Source of the DNA: Fischerella sp. JS2
GTDB lineage: Bacteria; Cyanobacteriota; Cyanobacteriia; Cyanobacteriales; Nostocaceae
Reading direction: 5' to 3'
Length of the DNA stretch: 64,000 nt
NCBI RefSeq assembly: GCF_032393985.1
Contig: NZ_CP135918.1
Location: 4,402,001 to 4,466,000 of the forward strand
Made by a program: the position numbers and the translations under genes. Each line of letters opens with the position of its first letter. Within the stretch, counting starts at the first letter, position 1. Below the pieces are notes generated by a model. That model was not told the DNA's origin. It saw only the letters and a program-made list of their open reading frames with translations, and did no database searches. Shown here piece by piece: positions 1 to 52,349 of this stretch.

Positions 1-906
1 AAAGCAGAAGGAGTACCTGTAGTCCAGACCTTACACAATTACCGTCTTTTGTGTCCCAACGCTTTATTTTTCCGTAATGGAAACATTTGTGAAGACTGCT
101 TGGGACAAGTTATACCTTATCCAGGAGTGTTGCATGGTTGTTACCGCAACAGCCAAGTTGCAAGTGGAGGTGTAGCAACGATGCTGGCGGTGCATTGGGC
201 AATAAATACCTGGACAAAAATGGTAGATATATACATCGCTTTGACTGAGTTTGCCCGACAGAAATTTATTGCTGGTGGTCTGCCAGCAGAGAAAATTGTA
301 GTTAAACCAAACTTTGTCAGTCCCGAACCTGCTGTTGGCAACGGCAGTGGTGGCTACGCCCTTTATGTAGGTAGACTTTCTGTGGAAAAGGGTATAGATA
401 CTCTCTTAAAAGCTTGGGAACATCTCAGTCCACAAATTCCTCTGAAAATTGTAGGTGATGGCCCTTTAGCTGAGCAAGTGGTAGAAGCTGCAAAACGACA
501 TTCTGGTGTGGAATGGCTGGGACGCAAACCAATGTCACAAGTACATGATTTGATGGGAGAAGCGAGGTTTTTGGTTTTTCCCTCAAAGTGGTATGAAACT
601 TTTGGTCGGGTTGCAGTTGAGGCATTTGCAAAAGGAACTCCAGTCATTGCTGCTAATATCGGTGCGATCGCAGAGTTAGTAGATTCCGGTCGAACTGGCC
701 TGCATTTCCGTCCAGGTGATCCAGATGACTTAACAGCTAAAGTAGAGTGGATGTTAGCCAACCCAGTCAAGCTTGCTTCCATGCGCCAGGAAGCACGGGC
801 AGAGTTTGAAGCTAAATACACCGCAGAGCAAAATTATCAAAAACTAATGGAAATTTATACTAAGATGCAAAAACTTGTTCCGAATAATAAATTACGACAT
901 CATTGA
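1..906 (+). CDS. Glycosyltransferase family 4, 5'-truncated by window edge
   Basis: The reading frame is open from base 1; the first visible residues (VPVVQTLHNYRLLCPNA) are the N-domain loop typical of GT4 enzymes, so the TTG at 49 is not the real start and the gene begins outside the window. The C-terminal Rossmann domain has the sequence ALYVGRLSVEKGIDTL and the nucleotide-sugar-binding E-x7-E motif in YETFGRVAVEAF. GT4 enzymes are retaining transferases that move a sugar from a nucleotide donor to a lipid-linked or sugar acceptor at the cytoplasmic membrane. It ends 28 bp before a membrane polymerase-like gene and probably shares its transcript. Family is secure; donor and acceptor cannot be read from sequence. 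Confidence 0.9.
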   Translation, partial: KAEGVPVVQTLHNYRLLCPNALFFRNGNICEDCLGQVIPYPGVLHGCYRNSQVASGGVATMLAVHWAINTWTKMVDIYIALTEFARQKFIAGGLPAEKIVVKPNFVSPEPAVGNGSGGYALYVGRLSVEKGIDTLLKAWEHLSPQIPLKIVGDGPLAEQVVEAAKRHSGVEWLGRKPMSQVHDLMGEARFLVFPSKWYETFGRVAVEAFAKGTPVIAANIGAIAELVDSGRTGLHFRPGDPDDLTAKVEWMLANPVKLASMRQEARAEFEAKYTAEQNYQKLMEIYTKMQKLVPNNKLRHH

Positions 907-934
907 ATCATCAAATCAAAACTTAGGGGGATAG

Positions 935-2284
935 ATGAACGCCGGGATAGGAATTTATAGAAAAAAAGCAGCGTACATTAAAAATTCTTTACTCATACCA
1001 TTTGCATTTGCTACCGCTTTTTTCCCCCGGATTCTCTATTCTTTAGGTTTTCCCTCATTTATCAATTTTTTTCACTTTTTCATAGTTCCACTGGCTTGCG
1101 GCATTATCATAATAAAAACAAAAATTAAAGATAAAAAGCAAATTTCTCTTTCTCAAACTCTCATAGTTGCTCTTTTCATCTTACTAGGAGTCATGACTGC
1201 TAGTGCCCTTCTTAATCGGGCTGGAGTGATTAACGTTTTTCTCTCATTGATGTTGCTTGGCGAGCCTTTTTTACTGCTACTGGCAATAACTTGTATTACT
1301 AATTCTCCGGAAACTCTCAAAAGAATTAGAACTTGGATATTAAGGTTTGCCTTTGTACACCTATTTTTGGCTTTTCTTCAGTATTTTCTTCTCAGTATTG
1401 GCAGACCTTTACCTGCACGTATCGTTATAGCAGGACCAGACAGTATCCAAGGAGTGTTTTTTGTCTCAGGTTCTGGTCATGTTGTGGGTGTTTCTGTGTC
1501 TATGGCATTTGGTCTATATTATTTCGTCAGTGCCAAGACTGCTCCTATGTGGCTGCGAATTTCTGTTTTCTTTGCTGCTTTTTATCACCTTTTAATTGCG
1601 GATGCCAAACAGGTACTGCTCGTATGGCTCATGGCCTGGGTACTATTGATATTTATTAAATTAAACGATATTAAAGCTACCATACAGTATTTAATAGCCG
1701 CAATCTTAATTGGTTATGCCCTAAATTGGTGCTTACAAAATCTAGAAATCTTTAGTGCTTTCAAAGTTTGGATGAGACCAGAACTTTACGGTCCTGACGG
1801 TTTAGCTACTCAACTGAAGACAGAACCATTGAAAATTATTCCCTCATTCTATAAATCACCCTTAAATTGGTTATTTGGTCTTGGACCGGGTCATACTATT
1901 GGACGATTAGGAGGGTGGATGTTAAAAGACTATTCAGCTTTGTTAAGTCCATTGGGTGCTACTATTCATCCCGCCAGTCAGGCTGTTTGGGATGCTTGGA
2001 GTGAACTGTCTTGGTTAGACTCTAGCTTTTTTGCTCCATTTTGGGGTTGGGCAGGGATTTGGGGAGATTTGGGATTTTTAGGTTTGGGAGCTTACCTATA
2101 TCTTGCTTCTATTGTATGGCGTCGGCTTTGTTTGGATGACTATTCTAAATTTCAGATGCTGACTGTGATGATTTTTGGTTTTATTTTCACTCAGATGGAA
2201 GAGCCTGGATATATGCTCTGTGTGGCTTGTTTGATTGGTCTGCGATGGCATGAGGTGCAGATTGCCAAGCGATATTTAGTTTGA
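935..2284 (+). CDS. O-antigen ligase/polymerase-like polytopic membrane protein
   Basis: A 449-residue, strongly hydrophobic protein with about ten predicted membrane helices. A long non-membrane segment (roughly residues 285-365, from GPDGLATQLKTEP to the Trp-rich stretch) sits before the last helices, as in Wzy/WaaL family proteins, which polymerise or ligate polysaccharide repeat units at the outer face of the inner membrane. The ATG at 935 is preceded by TAGGGGG at good spacing. It lies between a GT4 gene and a GT61 gene, which supports a polysaccharide role. No HNDYxR-type signature is seen, so the exact subfamily is open; another multi-pass exopolysaccharide protein is possible. Confidence 0.7.
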   Translation: MNAGIGIYRKKAAYIKNSLLIPFAFATAFFPRILYSLGFPSFINFFHFFIVPLACGIIIIKTKIKDKKQISLSQTLIVALFILLGVMTASALLNRAGVINVFLSLMLLGEPFLLLLAITCITNSPETLKRIRTWILRFAFVHLFLAFLQYFLLSIGRPLPARIVIAGPDSIQGVFFVSGSGHVVGVSVSMAFGLYYFVSAKTAPMWLRISVFFAAFYHLLIADAKQVLLVWLMAWVLLIFIKLNDIKATIQYLIAAILIGYALNWCLQNLEIFSAFKVWMRPELYGPDGLATQLKTEPLKIIPSFYKSPLNWLFGLGPGHTIGRLGGWMLKDYSALLSPLGATIHPASQAVWDAWSELSWLDSSFFAPFWGWAGIWGDLGFLGLGAYLYLASIVWRRLCLDDYSKFQMLTVMIFGFIFTQMEEPGYMLCVACLIGLRWHEVQIAKRYLV

Positions 2285-2356
2285 CAAATGACCAATGATA
2301 AATGACGACCATAACCAGTTAGCTTTAGTTGTGCCGACTTACTTAAATATTTTTCT

Positions 2357-3625
2357 ATGCAAATTCTCGATCAAATCACACCTCAACTCTATGCAATCAT
2401 CAAACGCGATCGCAGGCTAAAAAATTTGGTGATGCCGATTTGGCAATTCTTATCAAATGTTGCTGTGTGGATACGTAGTTTATCTCATCGTTCCAAATTT
2501 TTACCTCCACCAAGCGGAATTTGCCAGTCAGTTCAAGATTGGGTAAATATCTATCCTACTTCCACAAACCAAAAGCCAGCCAGCTACCAAGTCATCTACC
2601 CTAGTCACACAGTTACTAGAGCGTTACCAAAAACCATAGATGCAAGCATACATTGGAAATTTCGGATTAACCAACAACGGCAACTACCAGATGCATTTAT
2701 TGCCACTATCCCTAATGGTAGAGTTTGGGGTGATGGTAACGTCATTACACCTGACAACCAACTTCTAGCAGAAGTTTCCAAAGTCATAGGTAAAGGAGAA
2801 TACATCGCCGATTCAGCCAAGCATCCCATTTTCTCCCAGGGAAAACTGCCGCCTCTACAAAAAATATCGGGTAGTGTGGCAGTTCTCTCATCTGCTGGGG
2901 GAACAGGCTACTATCACTGGCTCTTTGATATCTTGCCACGCTTAGCATTACTACAAAAAGCAGAGATTGCATTTGAAGAGATTGATAAGTTTTTAGTTAA
3001 TAGATATATTTCTCGATTTCAGATAGAAACATTAAATACTTTAGGCATCCCGCGTAGCAAAATAATTGAAAATCATTGGAATCCACACATTGAAGCTGAA
3101 CAACTTGTAGTTCCTGCTTTAGTTGGAGAAACGAGTCATATGCCTAAGTGGGCTTGCGATTTCTTGAGGGACAATTTTCTTGGTGACAAAACAAAACAAA
3201 ACAAACAATCACTTCGCCTCTACTTAAATCGCACACAGGTCGTTCACCGCAAAGTAGAGAATGAATCAGAAGTTATTGAGTTTTTGAATAGATTAGGATT
3301 TCGCAATCTTTCCTTAGAAACCCTATCAGTTGCAGAACAAATTGAGTTGATGGCGGCGGCTGAAGTCGTAGTTGTACCTCATGGGGCCGGGTTAAGTAAC
3401 ATTGTCTTTTGCCAACAGGGTACAAAAGTCATTGAATTGCTATCACCTAAAGCAGTGAATTTCATGTATTGGTCTTTAAGTAATCAGGTAGGTCTAGATT
3501 ATTACTATCTTCTTGGTGAAGGAGAAGTACCACCTGAGCCGATTGATCCCTATGCCAATAATGATAATATTTTAATTAATTTAAACTCGCTTTCTCAGGT
3601 ACTGGAATTAGCAGAAATTCGGTGA
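2357..3625 (+). CDS. Glycosyltransferase family 61 protein
   Basis: A 422-residue protein with the hallmarks of the DUF563/GT61 family: the segment GTGYYHWLFDILPRL near residue 180 and the C-terminal VVVPHGAGLSNIVF motif near residue 340. Bacterial GT61 members are found in capsule and exopolysaccharide clusters and are thought to be inverting transferases. It follows the membrane polymerase-like gene by about 70 bp in the same direction and looks like the last gene of the left-hand polysaccharide group. There is no signal peptide; a cytoplasmic location is expected. Sugar specificity is unknown. Confidence 0.85.
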   Translation: MQILDQITPQLYAIIKRDRRLKNLVMPIWQFLSNVAVWIRSLSHRSKFLPPPSGICQSVQDWVNIYPTSTNQKPASYQVIYPSHTVTRALPKTIDASIHWKFRINQQRQLPDAFIATIPNGRVWGDGNVITPDNQLLAEVSKVIGKGEYIADSAKHPIFSQGKLPPLQKISGSVAVLSSAGGTGYYHWLFDILPRLALLQKAEIAFEEIDKFLVNRYISRFQIETLNTLGIPRSKIIENHWNPHIEAEQLVVPALVGETSHMPKWACDFLRDNFLGDKTKQNKQSLRLYLNRTQVVHRKVENESEVIEFLNRLGFRNLSLETLSVAEQIELMAAAEVVVVPHGAGLSNIVFCQQGTKVIELLSPKAVNFMYWSLSNQVGLDYYYLLGEGEVPPEPIDPYANNDNILINLNSLSQVLELAEIR

Positions 3626-3818: not shown

Positions 3819-4949
3819 TTATTCATCTAGTAAAATATTTTTATCTCTCATCAACCAACGCAAAAATAATTCAAAATACAGAAGCTTATTCTGCAAGCCT
3901 TCTCTCACTCTAATTTGGTAAAAAGTATTTTGCATAAATTTGTGGTGGTCGGTATTACCAGTTAATAGTTGCCTGCATATATCTGAGGAGAGAGAAACAA
4001 CCTCTGGATCAGCTTCTATGGCTTGTAAAACTTCATTTGGTAGGGTAATGCCTATAATATTATAAGTTAAGAAAAGACCAATAAAAACCATTCGTCTACA
4101 ATCAAACTCGCTAGCTTGTTGAATTAACATTTGCCAATTAATCTCTGGGTTGCGTCCGATTAATTCTGCAATATCAGCTAACCAACTAAGTTTTTCCCAG
4201 CGATGTCGAGATGCATGTGAACTCAGTAATAGTAACCAATTTTCTGGCGATAAACTATAGATTTTCATGCCACCAAAACTAGATGACAGGAGATTTTTCC
4301 AAATATACTTGACTTCTATTGAAGATGTGTATCGTGGTGTAATTCGCCAATGAACCTCCACCATTATTCTCTTGTTATCATTAATAAAGTTATAAGTATG
4401 CTTACTTTTATCTTTTAAGTAAGCGGCTTCTTCTGTTTTTGTTAATTCAATTTGTGGTCTATATCCTTGAGAAATTAGCAGATCTTTGAACTTTAAAACA
4501 TCTTGTGGTTGCACTAATATATCTAAATCACAGAACTGGCGTAGTGCGATATTTCCATATAATAAGTTTGCTAAAACAGGGCCTTTATAAGGAATAGCCA
4601 AAATTCTATTTTCTTGCAATAGGCGCAGGAGTTGTACAAGCTCTCCAGTCAAATGTAAACTGCGTTGAGCATTTGTGTAGAAAATCTTGCGAAGTTGTTC
4701 GAGAACATCTTTAGGAACAGTATCTGATGCGATCGCATTTATATTAGTATACAAAAGTGGTATCAAACCCTGTTTCCATGCACTACTGGTAATCTCTTGC
4801 CAGTCTAAATCTGTTTGTTGAATCAAACTTTTTATTTGTTCGGTTTTAGCACCATCTATTTTGGTAGAAGCACAACCAAGAAGTAGCTGTATTTCCGCAG
4901 GAACATTGACGTTTAAAATCTTAGTATTTAACTTTGGTAGAGTTTGCAT
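3819..4949 (-). CDS. Nucleotidyltransferase-family protein of the lasso-peptide cluster
   Basis: A 376-residue protein of the 'uncharacterised nucleotidyltransferase' (NTP_transf_5) type. The diagnostic stretch lies near residues 115-145: IPYKGPVLANLLYG followed by a DLDILV acidic pair, the metal/nucleotide-binding motif of the superfamily. Members are frequent next to lasso-peptide genes, and there is literature evidence, quoted from memory, that one works after a kinase to add a further group to a phosphorylated lasso peptide. Here it is the last gene of the minus-strand lasso cluster, 205 bp beyond the ABC exporter. A tailoring role is inference; its substrate is not shown by the sequence. 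The ATG at 4949 has only a weak ribosome-binding site. Confidence 0.75.
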   Translation of the reverse strand: MQTLPKLNTKILNVNVPAEIQLLLGCASTKIDGAKTEQIKSLIQQTDLDWQEITSSAWKQGLIPLLYTNINAIASDTVPKDVLEQLRKIFYTNAQRSLHLTGELVQLLRLLQENRILAIPYKGPVLANLLYGNIALRQFCDLDILVQPQDVLKFKDLLISQGYRPQIELTKTEEAAYLKDKSKHTYNFINDNKRIMVEVHWRITPRYTSSIEVKYIWKNLLSSSFGGMKIYSLSPENWLLLLSSHASRHRWEKLSWLADIAELIGRNPEINWQMLIQQASEFDCRRMVFIGLFLTYNIIGITLPNEVLQAIEADPEVVSLSSDICRQLLTGNTDHHKFMQNTFYQIRVREGLQNKLLYFELFLRWLMRDKNILLDE

Positions 4950-5154
4950 TTTTTTACTTCACTTTTTAGAAGTCTATGATTTATCGCCCTTGGGGCAAGG
5001 CAGGAGGCAACAAGGTTTGAATCTTTTATATTAAGCCTTCTTAAAAAGCCCAATTTGGTCTCAAGTCCCGTCGTTTACACGTCTATAATTGCTTGAGATT
5101 TGAATCTCCATACTTTTCTTCTACCATCTGCCTTCTTCAATGATTTTCAGTTTG

Positions 5155-7017
5155 TTAAGCAATCCCATTTTTAAGTTTCTGACTCGAACTAGACTCCATT
5201 TGTGCTTTCCAAGACTGGGCATAAAGTCCACCTAAAGCTAAGAGTTCGCCATGATTCCCTGACTCTACAATACGACCGGCACGCATTACGTGAATTATGT
5301 CTGCTTGCATAGCAAGAGTGAAACGGTGAGTAATCACAACAGCAGTACGACCTTCTGCTAATGTGCGGAAACGTTCTAACCAATCGTATTCAGCCCAGGG
5401 GTCCATAGCACTGGTTGGTTCATCTAAAATAATAATTTGAGCGCGTCTAAAAAATGCTCGTGCTAGTGCCAAACGTTGCCACTGACCCCCACTTAAATCG
5501 GTTCCATCAGGAAACAACTTACCCAGCATCGTGTTGTAACCCAAGGGTAAGCGCATAATCTTTTCGTGAATACCCGATGCTTTAGCTGCCGATTCAATCT
5601 CTGCCTGATTTGATAGTGCTGTGATATCTCCCAATGCAATATTGTCACCTGCTGTGGTGTAGTAAGGAATTGGAGATTGGAACAAAACAGTAATTAATCG
5701 ACGGAATTCTTTGACAGCAAACTCACGCAAGTCTATGCCATCTAATTCAATCCTTCCCGAATCTGGATCATAAAAACGGCATAAAAGCTTAATTAGAGTA
5801 CTTTTGCCTGCGCCATTGTCACCAACGATCGCTACAACTTTACTAGCTGGAATCGTCAAGTTAAAATTTTCTAATACAGCTTCTGTAGCACCAGGATAGC
5901 GGAAAGTAACCTGTCGAAATCGAATTTCTTTTTGAGGTTTTATAGGTATAGTAACTGGATTTTCCGGGTCTACAATTGTGGGCTGGATTTGTAAAAACTC
6001 AAATAAATTACCAATAAATAAGCTATTACGATAAATTTTTCCAATATTACTTAATAAGTCTTTAACAATACCTTGTCCCTGATTAAATACCTGAAAAAAT
6101 AAAGCTAAATCTCCTAATGTTAAAATACCTAATAATACTTGCCGTCCCATCCAAGCCAGGGCGCCACCAGTAATTGTCAGTGCAATGATGGCAGCAACAA
6201 AGCGACCTAAAGTTTGCAGTTTTAATAAATGGAATTGTTCTTTAACAAGTCGCCGACGCAGACTCTGATAAGCAGACTGGAAATGATTAGCAAAGTCAAA
6301 TAATCGTACTTCTGCGGCGGTGGAACTGTTTGTCAGCAGATAGTCATAATACATTAGCCAGCGACGGTCAGTTGTTGTTCGCTGTGACCATTGATATTGA
6401 ATTTTGCTGAGATACATTAATACATAGAACGCAGGAAAAGCACTGATAATTAAAATTGTCGGTAGCCAAAGACCGTAAGGAATTAAGATTGTTGCCATCG
6501 CCAACAATGTGACACTGTTTTGTAACAAACTACCAATGCTTTCTAATAATGCTAGCGATCGCCCACTTGCTCCTTCTCTAGCGCGATTAAGTTTGTCATT
6601 ATATTCTGAGTATTCATAAAAACCATAATCTACAGCCACTGACTGTTTATGAATCAAAGCTGTGATATGGTCATTTACTAATTCTGATTGAGCAGTGCGA
6701 ATCCATTCACCAGAACTATTTAAAATCTCTCCCAACAGCATGATACCCGCCATCAATGCTACTGGAATCAAAATCTGCTGAATACTTGCCGCAGAAATAC
6801 CATTGCCGGCAACTACTACTAAATTATCAACTACTTGACGAGTGAAAGTAAGGGAAATAGCTGGCAGTAATCCTTGCACTAATAACATTACCATCCAAGC
6901 TAAAGTCCAGTAGCGAGACGCAGCCCAGACAAGACTTAGAGTTTTAATTAGATGAGTGAGTATAGTATTTACACTATGAAATTTGCGCTTCAAAATATCA
7001 AAACCCTGTAAATTCAA
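5155..7017 (-). CDS. ABC transporter, fused permease-ATPase (lasso exporter)
   Basis: A 620-residue half-transporter: an N-terminal six-helix exporter domain (about residues 35-330) followed by an ATPase domain. Walker A GDNGAGKST is near residue 397, the signature LSGGQWQR near 507, Walker B IIILDEPTSAMDP near 527, and the switch His in VVITHRF. It should work as a homodimer in the cytoplasmic membrane. There is no N-terminal C39 peptidase domain, which fits lasso systems, where the leader is removed by B2. Its start overlaps the stop of the kinase gene by 4 bp (ATGA), indicating translational coupling. Export of the mature peptide and self-immunity is the likely job (D protein), inferred from context. 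Confidence 0.9.
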   Translation of the reverse strand: MNLQGFDILKRKFHSVNTILTHLIKTLSLVWAASRYWTLAWMVMLLVQGLLPAISLTFTRQVVDNLVVVAGNGISAASIQQILIPVALMAGIMLLGEILNSSGEWIRTAQSELVNDHITALIHKQSVAVDYGFYEYSEYNDKLNRAREGASGRSLALLESIGSLLQNSVTLLAMATILIPYGLWLPTILIISAFPAFYVLMYLSKIQYQWSQRTTTDRRWLMYYDYLLTNSSTAAEVRLFDFANHFQSAYQSLRRRLVKEQFHLLKLQTLGRFVAAIIALTITGGALAWMGRQVLLGILTLGDLALFFQVFNQGQGIVKDLLSNIGKIYRNSLFIGNLFEFLQIQPTIVDPENPVTIPIKPQKEIRFRQVTFRYPGATEAVLENFNLTIPASKVVAIVGDNGAGKSTLIKLLCRFYDPDSGRIELDGIDLREFAVKEFRRLITVLFQSPIPYYTTAGDNIALGDITALSNQAEIESAAKASGIHEKIMRLPLGYNTMLGKLFPDGTDLSGGQWQRLALARAFFRRAQIIILDEPTSAMDPWAEYDWLERFRTLAEGRTAVVITHRFTLAMQADIIHVMRAGRIVESGNHGELLALGGLYAQSWKAQMESSSSQKLKNGIA

Positions 7018-7946
7018 GATTTGGTAGCTAATAAATAATCCGAGGAAGTTTGAAGAGTATTACTACTATCATGTTGTGCTGTCAGCAGGGCAATATCATC
7101 CTCAACTAACTTCACTAAATTTGGTAAATCTTCCAAGGAAGGTTTGCGAGTAAAACGACAGAAACTCACACTTTTAATTAACTCGCTACAAAGATGTAAA
7201 TGACTAGTAACAAATTCTTTTTCTGTGAGTAAATTAATAGCACGAGTATGACGTACCAATTCTAAAAAAGCTTCTTGGAGTTCCATTTTGGTAATTATAT
7301 GTTCACTTCCCTTATCCAAAACATAAATCCGTTGTAGCGGTAGCGGATTTTGCTGAAAACCATGAGCAAATTTATAGGATAGTTTTGATGCATTTTGATA
7401 AATTGGCGATAAGTTTTTAGTCTCGTGTCCTAGAGAAATTAAAGCTTCTGGAAACACTTTAAATTGAGGATAGGCAGGTAATACCAATACTTGCCCTACT
7501 GCAATTTGGATCGGCATAACATCATCAGTTAAAACATCGTAGCCTTTTTTATGAAAAGCAGCTGCCAAAGTAGATTTTCCCCACCCAGAACCACCCATAA
7601 AGGCCACACATTTGTGATTGATGCTAATACAACTAGCATGTAGAACTAACAAACCCCTTTGTCGCAGGAGTACACACAACATAGGACCCAAAAGTACAGT
7701 GCGAAGCAGAGCTTCATCCACATTCGGTAAAGGATTAATAATAATTTCTCGTCCGTCTTTAATAAAACACTTAGCTACTTCTGGTATTTCTCCAACAAAA
7801 TTTTTACCGCCATCATGTTGTATTGCAGTTACATCATCTATTTTGCCAAACCGCACAATTACATCTGGTTCACCCTCAGTTTCAATCAGTTCGGGAAGTG
7901 GAAATTCAGAAGCAATGCACAAGTTATAAACTTTAAAAAATTTCAT
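7014..7946 (-). CDS. HPr-kinase-like peptide kinase of the lasso cluster
   Basis: About 310 residues. A P-loop GGSGWGKST lies at residues 118-126 from the ATG at 7946, and a DD pair (VLTDDVMP) follows, as in HPr kinase/phosphorylase-like proteins. The P-loop part is preceded by about 110 residues of the kind seen in RiPP-associated members. Homologues in lasso clusters (for example the paeninodin type) phosphorylate a serine of the precursor. I prefer ATG 7946 (MKFFKVYNLC) to an in-frame TTG at 7964. The stop overlaps the ABC exporter start. That it acts on the two precursors upstream is inference; neither precursor ends in Ser. Confidence 0.8.
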   Translation of the reverse strand: MKFFKVYNLCIASEFPLPELIETEGEPDVIVRFGKIDDVTAIQHDGGKNFVGEIPEVAKCFIKDGREIIINPLPNVDEALLRTVLLGPMLCVLLRQRGLLVLHASCISINHKCVAFMGGSGWGKSTLAAAFHKKGYDVLTDDVMPIQIAVGQVLVLPAYPQFKVFPEALISLGHETKNLSPIYQNASKLSYKFAHGFQQNPLPLQRIYVLDKGSEHIITKMELQEAFLELVRHTRAINLLTEKEFVTSHLHLCSELIKSVSFCRFTRKPSLEDLPNLVKLVEDDIALLTAQHDSSNTLQTSSDYLLATKS

Positions 7947-8297
7947 TGGTTTTATCAAATGCAATCAAAAAAGATATTTCATACAAAATTATCAAGCATA
8001 TGTATCTGGGCAATTACACTCCTAGATAAGAAATATGTAGTAGGTTGAAGTTGACGGTATTAAAACTCAATCAAAAATGGTTGGGTTTCGCAACCTCAAC
8101 CAACCTACAAAATTGTGCTTTTCCTAAAAAGGAAAAAATTTACTCTTAGTGAGTTATCTATTAACTGCAACAGCAAAATTTAGGTTTTTTTACATTAGTT
8201 CAGCTTAATTGCTTAACAAAAAAACCAAACTTAATGTTGTTTGTGCGTGCATCTGATCAAATAGTTTCTACAGCTTGAAAATATTTTGCTGGTAAAA
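7947..8297. other. Gap between precursor gene and kinase gene
   Basis: No convincing ORF is present. The gap holds an inverted repeat of the dispersed GTAGGTTG...CAACCTAC type (about 8040-8108). Nearer the precursor is a perfect 9-bp inverted repeat, GGTTTTTTT at 8183-8191 and AAAAAAACC at 8218-8226. These structures could limit read-through from the highly expressed precursor genes into the kinase and exporter genes, but no classical GC-rich terminator is seen. Confidence 0.5.
8040..8108. repeat. Dispersed-type inverted repeat (GTAGGTTG / CAACCTAC)
   Basis: Eight-base arms GTAGGTTG and CAACCTAC flank about 50 bp that include GGTTGGGTTTCGCAACCTC. This resembles the GTAGGTTGGGTT...-type intergenic repeat that I recall being common in Nostocales genomes. 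No coding content is seen. Confidence 0.5.
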
Positions 8298-8492
8298 CTA
8301 CTTAATTTCGCAATTTAAATTCTTACCTTTTCTAGTGCAGTTTAGATCTCTTGAACCCTGATCATCACCGCCAGATATAGAATTGCCATTGAAAAAGAGA
8401 AAGTCTGTTCTGCTTGAACTACCAAGAATTTGTGTAATTTCAGCAACATCACCGTAAACGGTTAGTTTAGGAATGCTGTACGCATTCTTCAT
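8298..8492 (-). CDS. Lasso-peptide precursor A1
   Basis: A 64-residue peptide. The leader carries the RRE-binding pattern Y5-x2-P8-x-L10-x3-G14-x5-T20 shared by many lasso precursors. After T20 come QILGSSSRTD and then FLFFNG, a block shared with the second precursor. The ring acceptor is probably D30. With T20 at -2 the core would start at I22 and make a 9-residue ring; if the core starts at G24 the ring has 7 residues. The tail is long and holds two cysteines (C52, C61). The ATG at 8492 follows AGGAG at 9-10 bp. Core boundaries are inferred. Confidence 0.85.
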   Translation of the reverse strand: MKNAYSIPKLTVYGDVAEITQILGSSSRTDFLFFNGNSISGGDDQGSRDLNCTRKGKNLNCEIK

Positions 8493-8840
8493 GATCTGTC
8501 TCCTAATCTGTGAGTGTAGATAGATAGTCTTTGCTAGAAGTAAAAGGTAGTGCCCCAGATTTGGACTTACGGTGTAGCTTAGTGGTCATAGATACGACAG
8601 TTCTATGACCACAACCTGCCAAGAGGTTGGATTTACGGTATTGTCGAGGGCGATGTGTACCATAATCCCTAAGCTACAACCTGCCAAGAATTAGAACTTA
8701 TATGATCACCTGCTTTTACAAGAAGTAAAACTTAGAGCATCACCTGCTTGTAGAAGTAATCAGCGTTTTGTTAGCTGTGCCTGTCTGATTTCAAGCGGTA
8801 ATCATTAAGATTTGAATCAGCAGCTTAGTTAGCTCAAACT
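8493..8840. other. Spacer between the two precursor genes, with nested inverted repeats
   Basis: No ORF is supported. On the plus strand, GTAGCTTAG (8574-8582) and CTAAGCTAC (8669-8677) are perfect inverted copies that enclose a second perfect 10-bp pair, GTGGTCATAG (8582-8591) and CTATGACCAC (8603-8612). The phrase CAACCTGCCAAGA occurs twice, GGATTTACGGT/GGACTTACGGT twice, and TCACCTGCTT twice. The pattern suggests local duplication and a folded RNA between the two peptide genes. Confidence 0.6.
8574..8677. repeat. Nested inverted repeats between lasso precursors
   Basis: The outer arms are 9 bp (8574-8582 and 8669-8677) and the inner arms are 10 bp (8582-8591 and 8603-8612), all perfect. 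The inner hairpin has an 11-nt loop. There is no T-run directly after it on either strand, so it looks more like an mRNA-processing or stability element than an intrinsic terminator. Confidence 0.6.
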
Positions 8841-9038
8841 CTACTTGTGTACAGGGTGAATAATCCCGTCTATAGATCCTTGAGCAGGTGTACCACCGTC
8901 ATCTGTTCCATCAGTATCTGGAATGTTTGAACCGTTAAAAAACAGAAAATCAGTCAATTGTTTGTTGCCAAATGCCTGTGTAATATCTCCGACACTACCG
9001 TGTGCAATCAGCATTGGTGTACTGTACGTTTTCTTCAT
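8841..9038 (-). CDS. Lasso-peptide precursor A2
   Basis: A 65-residue peptide starting MKKTYSTPMLIAHG at the ATG at 9038, which follows AAAGGAG at good spacing; an upstream in-frame start at 9092 is less likely. It shares with A1 the residues Y5, P8, L10, G14 and T20 and the block TDFLFFNG, with the candidate ring acceptor again at D30. Core start would be A22 (9-residue ring) or G24 (7-residue ring). The tail after FNG is Gly/Asp-rich and, unlike A1, has no Cys. It lies 127 bp downstream of the cyclase gene, on the same strand. Precursor identity rests on the leader motif and neighbours. Confidence 0.85.
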   Translation of the reverse strand: MKKTYSTPMLIAHGSVGDITQAFGNKQLTDFLFFNGSNIPDTDGTDDGGTPAQGSIDGIIHPVHK

Positions 9039-9164
9039 TGCTGTAACTCCTTTGGTGTTTGACCTATTTTCTTCAAACTTGTGGTGATACACCCGGCTAA
9101 TTGGATTTACAGTGGCTATAATGTTAAAAGTGCTTGTAAATCCACATTTGCCAAGTTTTGAAAA

Positions 9165-11192
9165 TTACGGTACTAATCCCTTAAAGTCCAGCCATGATGC
9201 TAAGATGACTGCCTGCCAAACTGCCATCCAATCATCATTGCTAGCTTGGTTGTCTGCGGAAAGTATGCGCTGATAAGCTGTTTGCAGAAAATCTAAGTTA
9301 ATGTATTTTTCCAGATGTTTGATTTTTTGGGACATCACCTGATCGAGAATTTGGCGATCGCGCTTGAGCAACCCATTGTTAAAGTTTGGTGACAAGTCTG
9401 CTTTTCCACCACGCCACTGAATGCTTTCTGGAAGGATACCCTCTAAAGCACGACGCATGATCATCCGTCCCCATCCTTGATATAGTTTTTGTTCAGAAGG
9501 CAATGCTAAACAGAATTCTACGAGTCGCTTATCCATGAAAGGATGACGAACTTCCAAAGAAAACATTGCTGCATATTGATCCATCTGTTCTAGGGTGTAG
9601 GCTAGTATTCCTTGAGTTAAACTACGCCAATGCTCCTGTCTTAAAGTCAGGGGCGTTTCCTGTGGAGGGTCTAACGTTTGTATCCGTTCATCCAGACGAA
9701 TACGTTGTGCAAAGTTACGGTTAACTAAAGGAGTCTTAGGCAAAGCCGAAGCCGGAGATGTTTTTTGTCTGGGTTGTCCCCTCCAAAATAGCCGTATTTG
9801 TTCCCACAAAGGTTTAATTCCGTGATAGATAATTAACAATTTCCGGGAAACACCAAAATGTTGATGAATCAGTTGCACGGTTTTAACAAACTCTATCCAT
9901 TGCCACTTCTTGACCAAATCCTGGAGATATGGTAATCCATGACTTCTAAAAACTACGTATGGTGAAACATTGTGATGTGCCGCGATCGCTTTAGCTTCCT
10001 GGATGAGGGTTTTCCACTTACCTTGACGTCCCAATTCAGTGAGTCTAGCTATACCGTGGCTCACCGTAGTATCACCATCAAAGCCATCCAGGGAAATCCG
10101 CATTCCTAGTTCTTTGGCAGCGCGATAAACCATCCAAGGATAGAAATGACTTGGACCCAATAAAGCTTCATCTTCGTACTGAAAAATGCTATCTAGATTA
10201 GACAAAGGGCCAAACTCATCACCATGAATATAGTGGGGAATGAATCCTCCCTGTTCTAGTACAGCATTGATAAAAGGGCGTTCATCACATTCAGTAACTT
10301 TGTCAAAAATACTTGAGATGGTGTGTAGTGGGGATTTCCCGACTTCCGCAAGTAGATTCCGTGCTACACAACTCACAGCAGAAGAATCCAAGCCACCACT
10401 CAGTTGGCTAAACATTGGAAAGGCGGTACGCAAGCGACACTTCACTGCTTGGGTGAATATCTGCCGAAATTCTTGAGCATAAGCTTCGTTATCAGCTAAA
10501 TGAATCTCCCGCTCAGGGTCTAGTGACCAGTAAGACCATTGTTGTATTCCTGATTGACTGACCACCATGCTGTGAGCAGGAGGAAGTCGCAGAATATTTT
10601 TATAGGTGGTAATCTTTTGGTCTTCCATCATCAATGCCAAGTAGTCGCCAATCCTAACTTCATTCAGGCGACATGGAACGTGTGGCAAACATAGGATTGC
10701 TTTGATTTCTGAAGCAAATATGAATTGTTGATTTGGTTGATGGTAATAGTAAAAAGGCTTGACTCCAAAATGGTCTCTAGCACAGAAAAGTGTTTGCTTT
10801 TTTCTATCCCAAATGGCAAAGGCAAAATCACCTAGTAGATGCTCTGCACATAGCTCTCCCCATTTTTGATAAGCAGCTAATATTAGCTGAGTGTCCGTTA
10901 TTTTTTCGAGCGGACAATCATTTATTTGTAATATAAATAATAATTCTTCCCGATTGTCAATGCGAGCGTCGGATGTAATGACTAAATCACCAGTTTCATT
11001 AACTAGAGGTAACTTTTCTAGTAGAGATTCGGGGGTAGTCCACAGCATTCTATGGCCAAAACCCAGATTTCCATCATGCCAGATATCTGCACCATCAGGG
11101 CCACGGTGAGCTAGAGTATTTACCATCTTTTCTAAGTCTTGCTTGTCTACAGAACGCCCGTCAAGATAGTAAATTCCCATCATCCCACTCAT
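9165..11192 (-). CDS. Lasso-peptide cyclase (C protein, asparagine-synthetase-like)
   Basis: A 675-residue two-domain protein like asparagine synthase B: an N-terminal class II glutaminase-like domain (LAHRGPDGADIW, near residue 30) and a C-terminal synthetase domain with the ATP-pyrophosphatase loop SGGLDSSA near residue 262. It begins MSGMMGIYYLDG, so the catalytic Cys2 of true asparagine synthetases is missing; glutaminase activity is not expected. That fits lasso cyclases, which adenylate the Asp/Glu side chain and close the macrolactam. The ATG at 11192 overlaps the B2 stop (ATGA). The longer frame to 11393 lies over B2 in another frame and is not credible as coding. Confidence 0.92.
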   Translation of the reverse strand: MSGMMGIYYLDGRSVDKQDLEKMVNTLAHRGPDGADIWHDGNLGFGHRMLWTTPESLLEKLPLVNETGDLVITSDARIDNREELLFILQINDCPLEKITDTQLILAAYQKWGELCAEHLLGDFAFAIWDRKKQTLFCARDHFGVKPFYYYHQPNQQFIFASEIKAILCLPHVPCRLNEVRIGDYLALMMEDQKITTYKNILRLPPAHSMVVSQSGIQQWSYWSLDPEREIHLADNEAYAQEFRQIFTQAVKCRLRTAFPMFSQLSGGLDSSAVSCVARNLLAEVGKSPLHTISSIFDKVTECDERPFINAVLEQGGFIPHYIHGDEFGPLSNLDSIFQYEDEALLGPSHFYPWMVYRAAKELGMRISLDGFDGDTTVSHGIARLTELGRQGKWKTLIQEAKAIAAHHNVSPYVVFRSHGLPYLQDLVKKWQWIEFVKTVQLIHQHFGVSRKLLIIYHGIKPLWEQIRLFWRGQPRQKTSPASALPKTPLVNRNFAQRIRLDERIQTLDPPQETPLTLRQEHWRSLTQGILAYTLEQMDQYAAMFSLEVRHPFMDKRLVEFCLALPSEQKLYQGWGRMIMRRALEGILPESIQWRGGKADLSPNFNNGLLKRDRQILDQVMSQKIKHLEKYINLDFLQTAYQRILSADNQASNDDWMAVWQAVILASWLDFKGLVP

Positions 11193-11626
11193 AACTTGAC
11201 TCCTTCTAGCGTTGGTAGGGGAATAAAGCGAGAAAGGTCTGCGAGATTCCCAATCACGATCTTTCCTTGATGTTCTATCCAAGCATGAGCCTCTAGGATT
11301 CCTGTCTTGTCTTTGGCGACACCGATGCGGAGTTGACAAGGGTGACTGTACCGATTCATCAGGACTTGCGTAGTCAAGGCACGAGCCAAGCACTTGACAC
11401 CAGGCATATAACGACTAGCTACCTCTACAGCCCAGACAATTTTGCGGATGGATACTTGGTTTGTAGTTTGTGTGACTGGTTGACTGATTTTTGCTAATAG
11501 TTTTAAAAGAGTGCGAAACGGCAGCAACCACAACCCCAGGCGCATAGCTGCTAGTAAAATCAAGGTCGTGATTAATAAGTGGCGATCGCCTGCATTAAAA
11601 CTCAAAAACTTAAACAGTAGCGTCAT
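11189..11626 (-). CDS. Lasso-peptide leader peptidase B2 (transglutaminase-like)
   Basis: A 145-residue protein of the transglutaminase-core type used by split lasso B proteins. The likely Cys-His-Asp catalytic set is C79 in GVKCLARAL, H114 in EAHAWIE and D130 in GNLADLS. A hydrophobic N-terminal region (about residues 15-45) suggests membrane association. The enzyme removes the leader so that the cyclase can act on the new N-terminus. It overlaps B1 by 17 bp and the cyclase by 4 bp, a tightly coupled B1-B2-C arrangement. Confidence 0.9.
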   Translation of the reverse strand: MTLLFKFLSFNAGDRHLLITTLILLAAMRLGLWLLPFRTLLKLLAKISQPVTQTTNQVSIRKIVWAVEVASRYMPGVKCLARALTTQVLMNRYSHPCQLRIGVAKDKTGILEAHAWIEHQGKIVIGNLADLSRFIPLPTLEGVKL

Positions 11627-11924
11627 TTTGAATATTTATTAGTTCCGCAGCTAAAAGATCTTCAAGTAAATTGACCAAATCGCGATCGCACTGTTCGGCT
11701 TCGACCTCGTACTCTGCCAAGATAGCTGCTTTAATATCCTCTACAGTTTTAGGTGTTTGAATTAAATTCCAGATCAGTGTTCCTACTTCATTCAAACCGT
11801 GATATGTACCAGATTTAATATTGAGAATTACTGCTTCACCTCCCAAATCAGAGGAAATTTGCTCAACAGATGCCACAACAATTGTATTTTCTGAGATTTT
11901 ACCTTCTACTGTTTTTGATTTCAT
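11610..11924 (-). CDS. Lasso-peptide recognition protein B1 (PqqD-like RRE)
   Basis: A 104-residue PqqD-family protein. The sequences GGEAVILNIKSGTYHGLNEVG and LIWNLIQTPKTVEDI are typical of the winged-helix RiPP recognition element, and an acidic C-terminal helix (LVNLLEDLLAAELI) ends the domain. It binds the YxxPxL leader motif and hands the precursor to B2 and C. It is the first gene of the minus-strand lasso operon; the promoter should lie in the gap starting at 11925. Confidence 0.9.
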   Translation of the reverse strand: MKSKTVEGKISENTIVVASVEQISSDLGGEAVILNIKSGTYHGLNEVGTLIWNLIQTPKTVEDIKAAILAEYEVEAEQCDRDLVNLLEDLLAAELINIQNDATV

Positions 11925-13723: not shown

Positions 13724-14323
13724 TTAATCAAAGAAGTAAATAAAGAAGCATTTGGCTAGGAACAGTTCATTATTAGTTGCTGTCAACGAGGTTTAACAGC
13801 AATTTTACCAAAATTGTAGTGGCGATCACTATTTTGCAAAATATAATGTGCGGTAGTTGGTAACTGATAATTAGTAAGAGTGTCCATTACCATGCATTGG
13901 CGGGTGCTGTCGTTCCTCTTACTCCGACTACGCTTCGGAGGCTTAGTGCCGATTTTGTGTGACTTATGTAAATTATCTTTATACTAATGGCCAGATGCAC
14001 AGTATAAAAAATCTATACATACAGCTTGATTAACCGTCTAAGTTAAGCTACCAATCTACCTTACGTAATGTTACTGTATGTATAGTGCATCGCTCCAAAT
14101 TAACGGGCATTTTCAAGACTTAAAACAGGGTGACAATGAAGTCAAAACAAGGAGTTCAGTATTTAGAATTACCCCACAATTAAAGTTGGGAACCCCAGAC
14201 AAAGAAAATAATTTTTTGATCTACATATGATCGAACTGCGGGCTTTTACTTTTGACTTTATTAATTCTGAATTCTGAATATCTGATTATTTCGATCAGAA
14301 ATGTAGTTAAATTTACTAAGGTT
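13724..14323. other. Gap between tRNA-Gln and the Wzz/BY-kinase gene
   Basis: About 600 bp with no gene. It carries the long interrupted inverted repeat described separately (13994-14091), which lies about 230 bp upstream of the kinase gene, and a palindrome TTACGTAA at about 14061-14068. A promoter for the kinase gene is expected here but cannot be placed with confidence. Confidence 0.5.
13994..14091. repeat. Long interrupted inverted repeat upstream of Wzz/BY-kinase gene
   Basis: The right arm CTGTATGTATAGTGCATC (14074-14091) is the exact inverted copy of GATGCAC (13994-14000) plus TATACATACAG (14014-14024); the left arm is split by 13 bp. About 49 bp separate the arms. It could be a regulatory cruciform or the ends of a small lost element. 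Confidence 0.7.
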
Positions 14324-16546
14324 ATGCTGAAATCAGACAAAACTCATCACCCGTTGTTAACAGCTAACTCTGCTCAATTAAATGATGCTGATGAAGGCGG
14401 ATTAAATTTAGGTCAAGTGGGAGCGGCTCTTCGTCGGCGAGCGCTATTAATAGCTGGTCTCACAGGTGTAGTAGCAACCGCAGGGGTATTAAAAGCAGAA
14501 ACAGATCCACCAGTATACCAAGGCAGTTTTGAAATATTAACCAAACCTGTGACTGGTGAGGGTAAGGTTATAGCTAATGTTCCTCAAACTATAGGAGATG
14601 GCAAAGACGCGATCGCAGCTCCAGAAACTACCGAAGAAGTCAAGACAACAATAAAAGTTTTACAAAGTCGCAGAATACTAGAGCCCGTCATCAAAAAGCT
14701 TCAGACTAAGTACCCAGAAATAGAATACGACTATGTAATTGAGAACTTAGAGATTGAGTCAAAACAGCGACACATTTTAGAAGTTCAATATACCGATGCA
14801 GATCAGCAGCTAGTTACAGATTTGCTAAATAGTATTAAAGATGCTTATCTGCAATATAGTTTGGCAGAACGTCGTAACGACGTAGAGCAGGCACTGAAAT
14901 TTGTAGAAAAACAAAGAAAACCATTAGAACAACGAGTCAAAGACTGGCAAGAACGACTGCGAACAATCAGACAGAAGAATAATTTAGTCGAACCAGCCCA
15001 GAAAGCACAGGAAGTATCCACTCATGTTGCTACATTGACACAGCAGCAACTAGAAAATCGTGTGATGCTAGAACAAATGCGAGCCAAGTATCAGGACTTG
15101 CAAAAAGAGTTCTTGCAACAACCAGGTGCATTAGCTAGCAATTCACTACTCAGTGATAACCCTCGTTACCAAAAAATTCTTGATCTGCTTCAGCAAACGA
15201 ATGCGGAAATAGCTCAAAGAGGATCTATCTTCACCGAAGAAGAAGAAGGCATGGTACGCCTTTCCGAACGGAGAGACACCATGATTTCAATGTTGGAGGA
15301 AGAAAGAGGGCGGGTGAACAGAGATTTTCAAAGCCGCATTCGAGAATTGGAAGCACGTGATCTGGCTATTCGTGAAAAAATAGATAATCTCAATGGCTAT
15401 TTGCGAGCTTTAGCAGCAGTTAGTCGTGATTACGATAACATTCAGCGAGAATTAGAAATTGCCACCCAAGGCTTAAGCCAATTTACAGCCAAGCAACAAG
15501 CATTACAAATCGAGTACGCTCAAAGATTACAACCTTGGAGATTACTAGATCCTCAGTTGTCAAAAGTGAGTGAACCTGACGCTATCTCAGATAGTGCTAA
15601 GAGAAATCTCATATTGGGAGGAATGTTAGGTTTGTTGATGGGAGTAGGAGCTGCTTTAGTTGTTGATAAACTCAGCAATGTCTTCTACACTTCCAAAGAA
15701 CTTAAGGAAACTATAGGGCTGCCATTGTTAGGAGTAGTTCCTCTCAGGAAAGAAATTGCCCTCTCCACAAATGCAGGTAATACTTCTAGTAGTTTGCAGC
15801 AAGCAGCTCGCGCTTCATTTTTTGAAGTATTTCGCTCTCTTTACACCAATATTTTGCTTTTAGGTTCTGATGCACCAATTCGTTCACTAGTGATCAGTTC
15901 CGCAGGACAAGGAGATGGAAAATCAACAGTTGCTGTACATTTAGCCTTAGCAGCAGCTGCAATGGGACACCGAATTTTGCTTGTAGATGCAAATTTACGT
16001 TCTCCCAGCCTCCACCAACGCGTAGGGTTAATGAATATTCAGGGATTGACTGATGTTATTTCTTCCGACTTAGACTGGAGTAACGTGATTGAGCGATCGC
16101 CTCTAGAAGATAATCTCTATGTCCTCTCTGCTGGCCCTGTTCCCCCAGACTCAATTAGGTTACTCGCATCTCAAAAAATGCAGGACTTGATGCAAGACCT
16201 ACATAGTAGCTTTGATTTAGTAATTTATGATACGCCTCCTCTAGTTGGATTTGCTGATGCAACCTTATTGGCAGCTAACACCAATGGTATGGTACTAGTT
16301 GCTGGTTTAGGTAAGTTAAAGCGTACCGTCTTCCAACAAGCATTAGAAGAGCTGCAAATATCTGGCACACCTATCTTGGGATTGGTAGCCAATAAGTCCA
16401 GAGATGCCGTACCTGCTTCCTATACCTACTATCAGCAGTATTACAGACAGAGCATGAGTGTAGAACGTGTTAGTGATGATGATGACACAGACATCAGAAA
16501 TAACTCTGTACCGACCTCTTCTTCTGTAAGAAAAATTAAGGGATAG
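14324..16546 (+). CDS. Wzz-like polysaccharide co-polymerase fused to BY-kinase
   Basis: About 740 residues from ATG 14324, which follows TAAGG; the in-frame TTG at 14252 is less likely. A Wzz domain with first membrane helix near residues 39-58 is followed by a long coiled coil (about 170-410), a second helix near 427-447, then a cytoplasmic tyrosine-kinase domain. Walker A (GQGDGKST) is near residue 527, Walker A' is ILLVDANLR, Walker B is LVIYDTPP. The C-terminal tyrosine cluster (SYTYYQQYY) near residue 698 is the usual autophosphorylation tail. Such proteins set chain length and control export. It is not next to a polymerase, but a second full-length paralogue lies at 50193. Confidence 0.93.
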   Translation: MLKSDKTHHPLLTANSAQLNDADEGGLNLGQVGAALRRRALLIAGLTGVVATAGVLKAETDPPVYQGSFEILTKPVTGEGKVIANVPQTIGDGKDAIAAPETTEEVKTTIKVLQSRRILEPVIKKLQTKYPEIEYDYVIENLEIESKQRHILEVQYTDADQQLVTDLLNSIKDAYLQYSLAERRNDVEQALKFVEKQRKPLEQRVKDWQERLRTIRQKNNLVEPAQKAQEVSTHVATLTQQQLENRVMLEQMRAKYQDLQKEFLQQPGALASNSLLSDNPRYQKILDLLQQTNAEIAQRGSIFTEEEEGMVRLSERRDTMISMLEEERGRVNRDFQSRIRELEARDLAIREKIDNLNGYLRALAAVSRDYDNIQRELEIATQGLSQFTAKQQALQIEYAQRLQPWRLLDPQLSKVSEPDAISDSAKRNLILGGMLGLLMGVGAALVVDKLSNVFYTSKELKETIGLPLLGVVPLRKEIALSTNAGNTSSSLQQAARASFFEVFRSLYTNILLLGSDAPIRSLVISSAGQGDGKSTVAVHLALAAAAMGHRILLVDANLRSPSLHQRVGLMNIQGLTDVISSDLDWSNVIERSPLEDNLYVLSAGPVPPDSIRLLASQKMQDLMQDLHSSFDLVIYDTPPLVGFADATLLAANTNGMVLVAGLGKLKRTVFQQALEELQISGTPILGLVANKSRDAVPASYTYYQQYYRQSMSVERVSDDDDTDIRNNSVPTSSSVRKIKG

Positions 16547-46402: not shown

Positions 46403-47467
46403 AGTCATATCATGTCCGCTTGAACACTTATAGTATTCGTTGAGGTCGGTAATGGGTAATTGGTAATGGGAAAAACTGATAGCTAACTTTTCCCTGCAAT
46501 TTGGCGATAGTATTTTGAGTATCTTCTATCCAGGAAGTAAGTTCTTGATCGATGCGATTTTTAAGTTTGTCAAATTGCCAGTGTTTACTCGCAAACATCA
46601 ATTGGCTAGGATAAGCGATCGCTTGTAACTGCTCACTTTACACTTGAGCTTACTTCAGTTTTAGGTAAAGCCTAATGTAGTAAACTTCTAAATTATTCAA
46701 GAATTTCCAAAATAAGATTTATTAAACATCTTTTGATGATTTATGCAAAATATTAGCAAAAAATTACTATTATCTTTATTTTTCATGCTTTCAAAGCTTA
46801 TAGTTGCATATAAATTAAATTGACATTACTTGTGAGTATTAATATCTATATAAAAATCGCTATTAAAGGCAACAAGCACACTAATAACAGAAGGCTCTTC
46901 GAGCAGTAGGTCGTTTTTTCAAAAACTAACTAGGAAACTTCTATAAATCAATATCTGAAATGTCAAATCATTATAAAGTTTTTTAAATCACAAACTTAAT
47001 GAAAAATTCATAAAAGATATAGTTATTCGATTAAATGCATCACAAGCAACAAAAATATGGTAAAAAATAATACTGATTATCATCTAACTTTCAAGCTAAT
47101 ATAAAGATTGTGTAAAGCTTTCTTGATCTAAGTGTCATTCAACTTCAGAAAGACTACATTTTTATTTAAAGACGCAATGAAGCATTGATGAAAAAAGCAT
47201 AAAATTATTTTGCGTGTTTTGGAAAGTAGAAAGCTTGCTCAGTGTATACGCGGGAGCAATCTACTTTTGTGGCTAAGCGTAGATATTTTTTCAAAGTTTC
47301 AAAATATATCCTTAACACGTAATACTACCATCGGAGGAATTCAAAAATCATCAATGTTTTTACATTTGAAAAAATACAGAACTGATGGAAGTAACCAATA
47401 TTTCTTGAGAGTTTGTTGAACTAACAACACCTAATTAATTGCACAATTATTGTGCAGGGTGCATCTC
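46403..47467. other. Gene-poor, AT-rich stretch with gene fragments
   Basis: About 1.06 kb without a complete gene. A minus-strand fragment at about 46432-46640 reads LMFASKHWQFDKLKNRIDQE and LTSWIEDTQNTIAKLQGK and may be the end of a lost gene; its 3' part is STRR sequence. From 46640 to 47440 the DNA is AT-rich. A short plus-strand ORF at 47210-47419 contains NTTIGGIQ, also found near the start of the next gene's protein, and could be a remnant of a glycosyltransferase start. No promoter can be placed with confidence. Confidence 0.5.
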
Positions 47468-48667: not shown

Positions 48668-48815
48668 AAAAGGCAGAGGGCAGAAGGCAATTAAAGGAGG
48701 ATTGGGACTCCCTTTAATTGAATACCACCAAATCGAAGAGAGGCGTGGGGATCTTAAACCCAAATGGGCAAGGGTACAGAGCATTGATACTTTGGTATAG
48801 AAAAACAAAAACCTT

Positions 48816-48858
48816 TTGCCACGGCGTTCTTTGTTCGCCCGCAGCTTTGCAACCCACG
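48816..48858. repeat. Dispersed repeat, copy 2
   Basis: Segment with GCGTTCTTTGTTCGCCCGCA and GCTTTGCAACCCACG matches the segment at 12518-12567 with a few substitutions. It lies in the gap between two GT4 genes. Confidence 0.6.
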
Positions 48859-48935
48859 CCTCCTCTGCCTTCTGCCTTGCCCCAAGGGAGATAAAAAGGC
48901 TTTAGAGCACAAGGACAACTGATTGGTATGTTGGT

Positions 48936-50108: not shown

Positions 50109-50192
50109 TCAATAGTCATTTGTCATTGTTTATTCCCCTTATCTTGTCCCCCTTGTCTGGTTTGTCTCCCCAATCCCTGATCCCCAACAATT

Positions 50193-52343: not shown

Positions 52344-52349
52344 CTAACG

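Follow-up and report, generated by a model that had tools for sequence, protein, structure and literature searches.

A lasso-peptide gene cluster of Fischerella sp. JS2 for two long lasso peptides predicted to be phosphorylated at an internal serine

The window analyzed here, 64,000 nucleotides of the genome of Fischerella sp. JS2 (contig NZ_CP135918.1, positions 4,402,001 to 4,466,000), carries on its minus strand, from 11924 to 3819, a lasso-peptide gene set that is complete with near certainty: B1, B2, C, the precursor genes A1 and A2, a kinase gene K, an exporter gene D and a nucleotidyltransferase gene N (Table 1). The set, probably for two long kinase-modified lasso peptides, belongs to a known and common family, and has features shared with its relatives that were not found in print in the open-access literature, covered mostly as listings. 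A previous sequence-only reading had described a complete lasso cluster of these eight genes on one strand. All eight were located there; B1, B2, C and both precursors scored above the curated cut-offs of lasso models, and N passed that of NTP_transf_5. The genes had also been called mostly overlapping, which the coordinates bear out for B1/B2 (17 bp), B2/C (4 bp) and K/D (4 bp) and not for A1, A2, K and N, which are preceded by gaps of 126, 348, 333 and 205 bp, respectively. The ATG starts of A1 and C were set from the sequence; the family scans had two additional N-terminal residues in A1 and one in C. The genome, a single contig of 7.02 Mb, is of Fischerella type, contains a single match to the lasso B2 family and encodes a cyclase that shares 96% identity, over the best segment, with the Fischerella muscicola PCC 7414 enzyme.

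Table 1. Features of the lasso-peptide cluster and its flanks, in window coordinates
Feature	Position	Strand	Assignment and evidence
B1	11610..11924	minus	PqqD-like RRE protein; NF033536 lasso_PqqD 81.2 bits (cut-off 80), PF05402 E 4e-21
B2	11189..11626	minus	Leader peptidase, Transglut_core3; NF033537 119 bits (cut-off 33), PF13471 E 8e-24
C	9165..11192	minus	Lasso macrolactam cyclase, 675 aa, ATG start; NF033535 lass_lactam_cya 1096.8 bits (cut-off 525)
A1 precursor	8841..9038	minus	65 aa; NF033528 lasso_cyano 69.2 bits (cut-off 33)
A1 Ser34 codon in GSID motif	8874..8876	minus	Predicted phosphosite; sequence and motif statistics
A2 precursor	8298..8492	minus	64 aa; NF033528 lasso_cyano 80.2 bits (cut-off 33)
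A2 Ser26 codon in GSRD motif	8352..8354	minus	Predicted phosphosite; sequence and motif statistics
A2 Cys31 to Cys40	8310..8339	minus	Predicted tail disulfide; sequence and Cys parity among relatives
K	7014..7964	minus	HprK-like kinase; H..GxxGxGKS..DD motif intact
D	5155..7017	minus	MsbA-like ABC exporter; PF00005 E 3e-31
N	3819..4949	minus	NTP_transf_5 nucleotidyltransferase-fold protein; PF14907 E 4e-62, 210.5 bits (cut-off 31.2)
GT4, membrane protein, GT61	49..3625	plus	Flanking polysaccharide genes
Wzz/BY-kinase-like protein	14252..16546	plus	Flanking chain-length protein; PF02706, PF10609

With the core start placed by the register of a Tyr at −17 (PMC10368454, as far as its accessible part goes), both precursors have a 21-residue leader that ends in Thr-Gln, with a YxxPxL motif and Thr at −2 (Thr20 of the precursor), and an Asp at core position 9, within positions 7–9 where lasso precursors place the Asp or Glu ring acceptor. 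The A1 core comprises 44 residues starting at Ala1 and contains no Cys; the A2 core comprises 43 starting at Ile1 and has the only Cys pair of the two, Cys31 and Cys40. Rings are predicted from Ala1 to Asp9 in A1 and from Ile1 to Asp9 in A2. Calculated neutral monoisotopic masses are 4595.199 for A1 (4675.166 with phosphate, 4837.218 with phosphate and hexose) and 4643.224 for A2 with the predicted disulfide (4723.191 and 4885.244); products trimmed after Ser34 or Ser26 would have 3485.565 (A1; 3565.531 with phosphate) and 2659.215 (A2; 2739.181). Both cores are longer than two size-record lasso peptides named in the accessible part of a review (PMC13352647): the holder of the largest loop has 30 residues and that of the longest tail 33. 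A1 ends in ..PVHK and A2 in ..CEIK, neither with a terminal Ser, and core residue 3 is Gly in both. The phosphosite must therefore differ from the published ones, which, according to the parts of the reports available, are the C-terminal Ser of pseudomycoidin for PsmK (PMC9266682 and PMC8498205), core Ser3 for BsfK (PMC10368454) and S3 for LppK (PMC13381572). The gap between A1 and A2 (window 8530–8752) contains imperfect direct repeats of 24–34 nt and an inverted repeat, which may be a processing or regulatory element.

K had been called HPr-kinase-like from its sequence. The motif and the predicted fold fit this assignment: the model (pLDDT 92.7) matched PEPCK best among solved structures, with HPr kinase folds lower down. 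Against the HPr-kinase models that it hit, its scores stayed under the curated thresholds (Hpr_kinase_C 23.8, cut-off 33.3; HprK_rel_A 35.1, cut-off 200). In an alignment of 40 sequences, H109, K130, S131 and D148 were invariant and D147 nearly so, and the strict H..GxxGxGKS..DD pattern occurred in 90 of the 107 kinases used for a tree, most of the other 17 deviating at the first Gly. By analogy with the characterized lasso kinases, phosphorylation by K is likely.

Relatives of the cluster proved to be frequent. A cyclase above the NF033535 cut-off was found in 83 of 217 genomes of the same family, and 100 stretches were fetched, 80 around cyclases and 20 around precursors; the window brings the set to 101 loci, 100 of which hold a cyclase. 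K was present in 100 of 100 cyclase loci, on the same strand and at most 2.3 kb from the cyclase, within a sample of one cyclase subfamily (other cyanobacterial lasso cyclases may be without K). No kinase-free cyclase locus occurred among the 100 sampled, so precursors with and without a kinase could not be contrasted. N lay inside the fetched stretch in at least 61 of the 100, a lower bound, as some loci counted as lacking it have N just beyond the stretch (G553 and G443). Such clusters are present in other cyanobacteria. The sequence-only reading had noted few described cyanobacterial products of this layout; that the layout itself is rare was not supported. Its suggestion that the compound itself is undescribed is plausible: going by titles and abstract openings, no isolated cyanobacterial lasso product was found in the open-access literature.

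From these discovery loci 143 unique candidate precursors were obtained, with Thr at −2 in 139 and Asp9 in 119; the four without Thr(−2) resemble chance open reading frames and were dropped, and six cyclase loci yielded no precursor. Loci L031–L041, fetched again from whole genomes, were kept out of the counts, and L042 (26% identity) was not used. Eighteen precursors with cores of 23–30 residues and a Ser at or near the end were designated class II, one of which (from L130) looks frame-shifted and was excluded from the Cys and residue-position counts; class I is a catch-all of the remaining 121. Class I cores are long, with a median of 43 residues and more than 33 in 113 of 121. Loci L111–L113 form a separate type inside the same cyclase family: their precursors have a YGTMK leader and Gly/Ser/Asn-rich cores of 34–63 residues, six of the seven with Asp8, and their kinases make up a branch of their own.

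The class I tails share a serine motif. [GD][ST].[DN] was found in 100 of 121 class I discovery cores versus 22.6 by shuffling, and in 50 of 65 cluster representatives (<60% identity) versus 12.7. Conservation of the Ser column is partly built in, since the motif finder requires Ser or Thr there, and the shuffles were relied on instead. Thr replaces the motif Ser in three precursors (from L137, L142 and L164). Other candidate sites are less widely shared: of the 121 class I cores, 101 have Gly at residue 3 and three have Ser/Thr there, seven end in Ser, and 47 have Ser/Thr at position 5, the ring position richest in these residues. Some forms appear to bridge the two classes. Two of the three L106 precursors end in ..LTFSGTF beside one ending in ..LTFS, and an L162 precursor ends in ..LTFSETPMRG, a short extension past the Ser; by sequence, the L106-type forms link terminal-Ser and internal-Ser precursors.

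Cysteines occur in the discovery cores in pairs or not at all. Among the 121 class I cores, 69 have no Cys, 51 have two and one has a single Cys; under a Poisson model, 44 single-Cys cores would be expected. The 67 representatives comprise 37 without Cys and 30 with two. In all 49 two-Cys discovery cores that have the motif, the pair lies past the motif Ser. A held-out set gave the foreseen count of zero or two in 32 of 32 cores, 15 of them from one genus. This parity in both sets argues for a disulfide in the tail, which would be odd for a part to be discarded; A2 likely has a Cys31–Cys40 disulfide and probably keeps its tail. The lone single-Cys discovery core, from a precursor at 6782 on the minus strand of a three-precursor cluster (L160), has its Cys at the place of the motif Ser (GCPDG).

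The reading of an internal phosphoserine recognized by K has several results against it. The strict motif is missing in 21 of the 121 discovery cores, and it failed in held-out precursors. The held-out set, for which three predictions were fixed before the search, consisted of 35 loci from 33 newly matched genomes (15 stretches of up to about 3 kb and 20 of 350–1251 bases), covering part of the matches in these genomes, with six already-known matched genomes excluded and adjoining lasso genes unchecked. Seventeen loci gave 32 new cores, 27 of them class I, after one without Thr(−2) was dropped; the other 18 gave none. The motif, foreseen in at least 70% of these class I cores, was found in six of 27 versus 4.8 by shuffling, and the expectation that the Cys pair lies past the motif Ser did not hold in the three scorable cores (L263). 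Fifteen held-out cores, all of genus code g225 (L255, L257, L258 and L259), read [GD]S.S instead, a form seen post hoc. In favor of the reading, the kinase tree (FastTree) unites the kinases of all 13 loci coded class II in a single clade with support 99, and class I versus class II needs a single change. The tree held seven plasmid kinases, two of them cut to the C-terminal part, with L176 and L181 left out and L162, which has one precursor of each class, coded class I. It may merely track the descent of whole operons, and its root is unsure; as whole operons descend together, the class II clade is no proof of precursor recognition. The strict motif was dropped as a rule for all cyanobacteria and appears, by sequence, to be a feature of the window's own group. 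Given the held-out result, we regard Ser34 of A1 and Ser26 of A2 as moderately likely phosphosites. The g225 clusters have four or five tandem precursors each, with [GD]S.S(L/I) tails; in most of these a Cys pair, for example DCDNNGNC, comes next.

The cluster lies among polysaccharide genes. On one side are two glycosyltransferase genes and a gene for a membrane protein without a Pfam hit, which we take to be O-antigen-ligase-like; on the other are the gene for the Wzz/BY-kinase-like protein and an epimerase gene. Using 15 window proteins as queries, a polysaccharide homologue was found in 46 of 91 lasso flanks versus four of 40 control regions of 17 kb, picked at random in 20 of these genomes and searched with the same queries (about tenfold, Fisher P = 5e-6), queries taken from the window possibly favoring close kin. 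The 91 loci have a cyclase and at least 4 kb of flank; nine of 100 were left out. With genus codes g1 and g193 removed (the genus of the window and other Fischerella), 40 of 85 flanks remained positive (P = 4e-5), and 25 of 45 genera had a homologue in a flank. The density per 10 kb was 1.07 in near flanks, 1.65 in outer flanks (ten loci, ten of 20 stretches positive) and 0.10 in controls. A second exopolysaccharide-type run lies on the plus strand at 47450–62696 of the window, with eight glycosyltransferases (four GT4-type and four GT2), a Wzz/GNVR chain-length protein, Wzy_C, a methyltransferase and an acyltransferase.

Relatives were also sought on plasmids, where 15 records were found and nine fetched. 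Sugar or polysaccharide genes lie near seven of the nine kinase-bearing lasso clusters, counted without a control set: those of Priestia, Thalassobaculum (only galE), Halopiger, Butyrivibrio, Sulfitobacter, Paracoccus and Azospirillum. None was seen in Rhizorhabdus, and the Paenibacillus record is unannotated there. On the Halopiger xanaduensis plasmid (L177), the lasso cluster of this haloarchaeon comprises a cyclase, B1, B2, a kinase, NTP_transf_5 and an ABC transporter and lies near a flippase, in a record that annotates the kinase open frame only partly. The accessible part of PMC13381572 reports a polysaccharide association in Bacilli and, for one strain, up-regulation together with an exopolysaccharide gene; it describes the role as unknown and names biofilm as speculation. 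Relative to what is accessible of that work, the present addition is the extension of the association to cyanobacteria, with a control set. A surface-polymer role is possible.

N would supply the step after phosphorylation. All 37 aligned N sequences matched NTP_transf_5, and their invariant residues include K122, G123, Y131, R137, D141, D143 and H200. The predicted structure (pLDDT 91.7) is nearest to LnuA (E 9e-4), the sole fold at E ≤ 0.001, followed by ANT(2'')-Ia and FKRP at E values near 0.02; a sequence search of the PDB with the N profile gave no match up to E 0.1. FKRP is a ribitol-phosphate transferase, and its entry in the structure listing is for a complex that contains CDP-ribitol and a sugar acceptor. 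In pseudomycoidin, PsmN is reported to attach one or two hexoses to the phosphoserine (accessible parts of PMC9266682 and PMC8498205), and by analogy sugar addition by N is plausible. The sequence-only reading had suggested phosphorylation followed by transfer of a further group, an order that only this analogy supports, and the C-terminal Ser that PsmK uses is missing here. A tie between N itself and polysaccharide genes was considered and dropped: the raw difference (39 of 57 versus seven of 34 loci, P = 1e-5) was not upheld after correction for phylogeny (P = 0.22 in a genus vote, median P = 0.375 over independent pairs), which also counts against our account of the cluster.

On this evidence we think it fairly probable that the operon makes two long lasso peptides that are phosphorylated at an internal Ser, with a tail disulfide in A2, a sugar step by N and a role in the exopolysaccharide. 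B1, a predicted binder of the precursor leader, would recognize the YxxPxL region; K would phosphorylate the internal Ser in [G/D]-S-x-[D/N], that is, Ser34 of A1 and Ser26 of A2; B2 would cleave after Thr-Gln; C would join residue 1 to Asp9; and D would export the product. The two Cys of A2 would be oxidized to the tail disulfide. N would probably modify the phosphoserine with a sugar-containing group, and the finished peptide would probably act in or with the exopolysaccharide layer encoded around the cluster.

Other accounts were weighed. The part past the motif Ser could be a follower that is discarded, a protease trimming the product to Ser34 or Ser26 and leaving a paeninodin-type C-terminal phosphoserine. 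The characterized kinases of Firmicutes and Proteobacteria do act on a C-terminal Ser (accessible part of PMC8498205), and class II precursors, made for the same cyclase family, end at the Ser, which the L106 and L162 forms extend briefly. We still hold trimming to be rather unlikely, as the Cys pair that lies past the Ser in every two-Cys core with the motif suggests a tail that is folded and kept and, besides the leader peptidase B2, no cluster gene matched a peptidase family in the Pfam scan. There is also a small chance that K phosphorylates a residue other than Ser34 or Ser26. The sites of BsfK (core Ser3) and LppK (S3) and the failure of the strict motif in held-out cores favor this; the Gly at position 3 of A1, A2 and most class I cores, and the Ser/Thr content of the ring, at most 47 of 121 at any position, argue against it, the internal motif being more widely shared than those sites.

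It is conceivable, though on balance doubtful, that the products are secreted antimicrobials and that the polysaccharide neighborhood is a mere hotspot of gene exchange. Polysaccharide loci are variable islands, which speaks for such a hotspot. Several characterized lasso peptides are antimicrobial inhibitors of RNA polymerase (accessible part of PMC13352647). Sugar genes nevertheless recur near the plasmid clusters of Bacillota, Alphaproteobacteria and a haloarchaeon, although that count lacks a control set, and the association and co-up-regulation in Bacilli point the same way (accessible part of PMC13381572). That no lasso peptide is made, with B1, B2 and C serving another peptide or an asparagine pathway, is hardly credible: C does exceed the cut-off of the asparagine synthase model TIGR01536 (284 versus 267 bits), but its score against the lasso cyclase model is 1097 bits, and the precursors, B1 and B2 pass lasso cut-offs. 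An assignment of C to asparagine synthesis or another pathway was rejected on this comparison.

Several known systems resemble the cluster. The models lasso_cyano (NF033528) and lass_lactam_cya (NF033535), which the window precursors and cyclase match over their cut-offs, name the family and, compared as scan rows, are silent on the kinase, the phosphosite, Cys pairs and surroundings. As far as the accessible parts of the reports go, the pseudomycoidin cluster (psm) combines a kinase and a nucleotidyltransferase as the window does, including an NTP_transf_5 gene, whereas PsmK targets a C-terminal Ser and the window precursors end in Lys. The HprK-like kinases of the paeninodin type (PadeK, ThcoK and SyanK) act on lasso precursors and have the His-Lys-Asp-Asp set that K also keeps, as well as the H, GxxGxGKS and DD motif, and their C-terminal Ser site is absent from A1 and A2. 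The bsf cluster of Bradymonas (BsfK and BsfN) has the same seven functions (A, B1, B2, C, D, K and N) and a phosphosite off the C-terminus, with core Ser3, Ile(−2) and one precursor where the window has Gly3, Thr(−2) and two. The clusters for linear polyphosphorylated peptides (LPP) of Bacilli (PMC13381572) also lie near polysaccharide loci and, like the window, encode a kinase, an NTP transferase, an RRE and an MsbA-like exporter; they have no cyclase and a signal-peptidase-like enzyme, whereas the window has C and B2. Class IV lasso peptides such as pandonodin have a long tail with a disulfide (PMC13352647), and of the two window precursors A2 alone has two tail Cys; from its sequence we infer that A2 is of this class. 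Pandonodin has 33 residues, with no phosphate mentioned in the accessible text, whereas A2 would have 43 and a phosphate.

The top NCBIfam models for D were MsbA_rel and MsbA_lipidA, both under their cut-offs, and the Pfam scan of D (20 families, up to E 1) gave no peptidase domain. Promoter-like and terminator-like sites were fewer than by shuffling (17 versus 23.9 and three versus 5.7).

A more far-reaching proposal, which we consider improbable, is that the lasso peptide is itself part of the exopolysaccharide: K would phosphorylate an internal Ser, and N, with FKRP among its nearest solved folds, would join it to a sugar or sugar phosphate. The tail-locked lasso would then prime, cap or be covalently bonded to the surface polymer that the neighboring genes make. 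If this were true, the kinase-bearing lasso peptides of Bacillota, Alphaproteobacteria, Cyanobacteria and Haloarchaea would be matrix components and not antibiotics. If the constant kinase, the internal Ser, the locked tail and the polysaccharide locus do belong together, a single experiment in a tractable cyanobacterium could yield a cyanobacterial lasso structure and a new kinase specificity and test the surface role. The features common to the relatives make the chemistry and role of the cluster directly testable.

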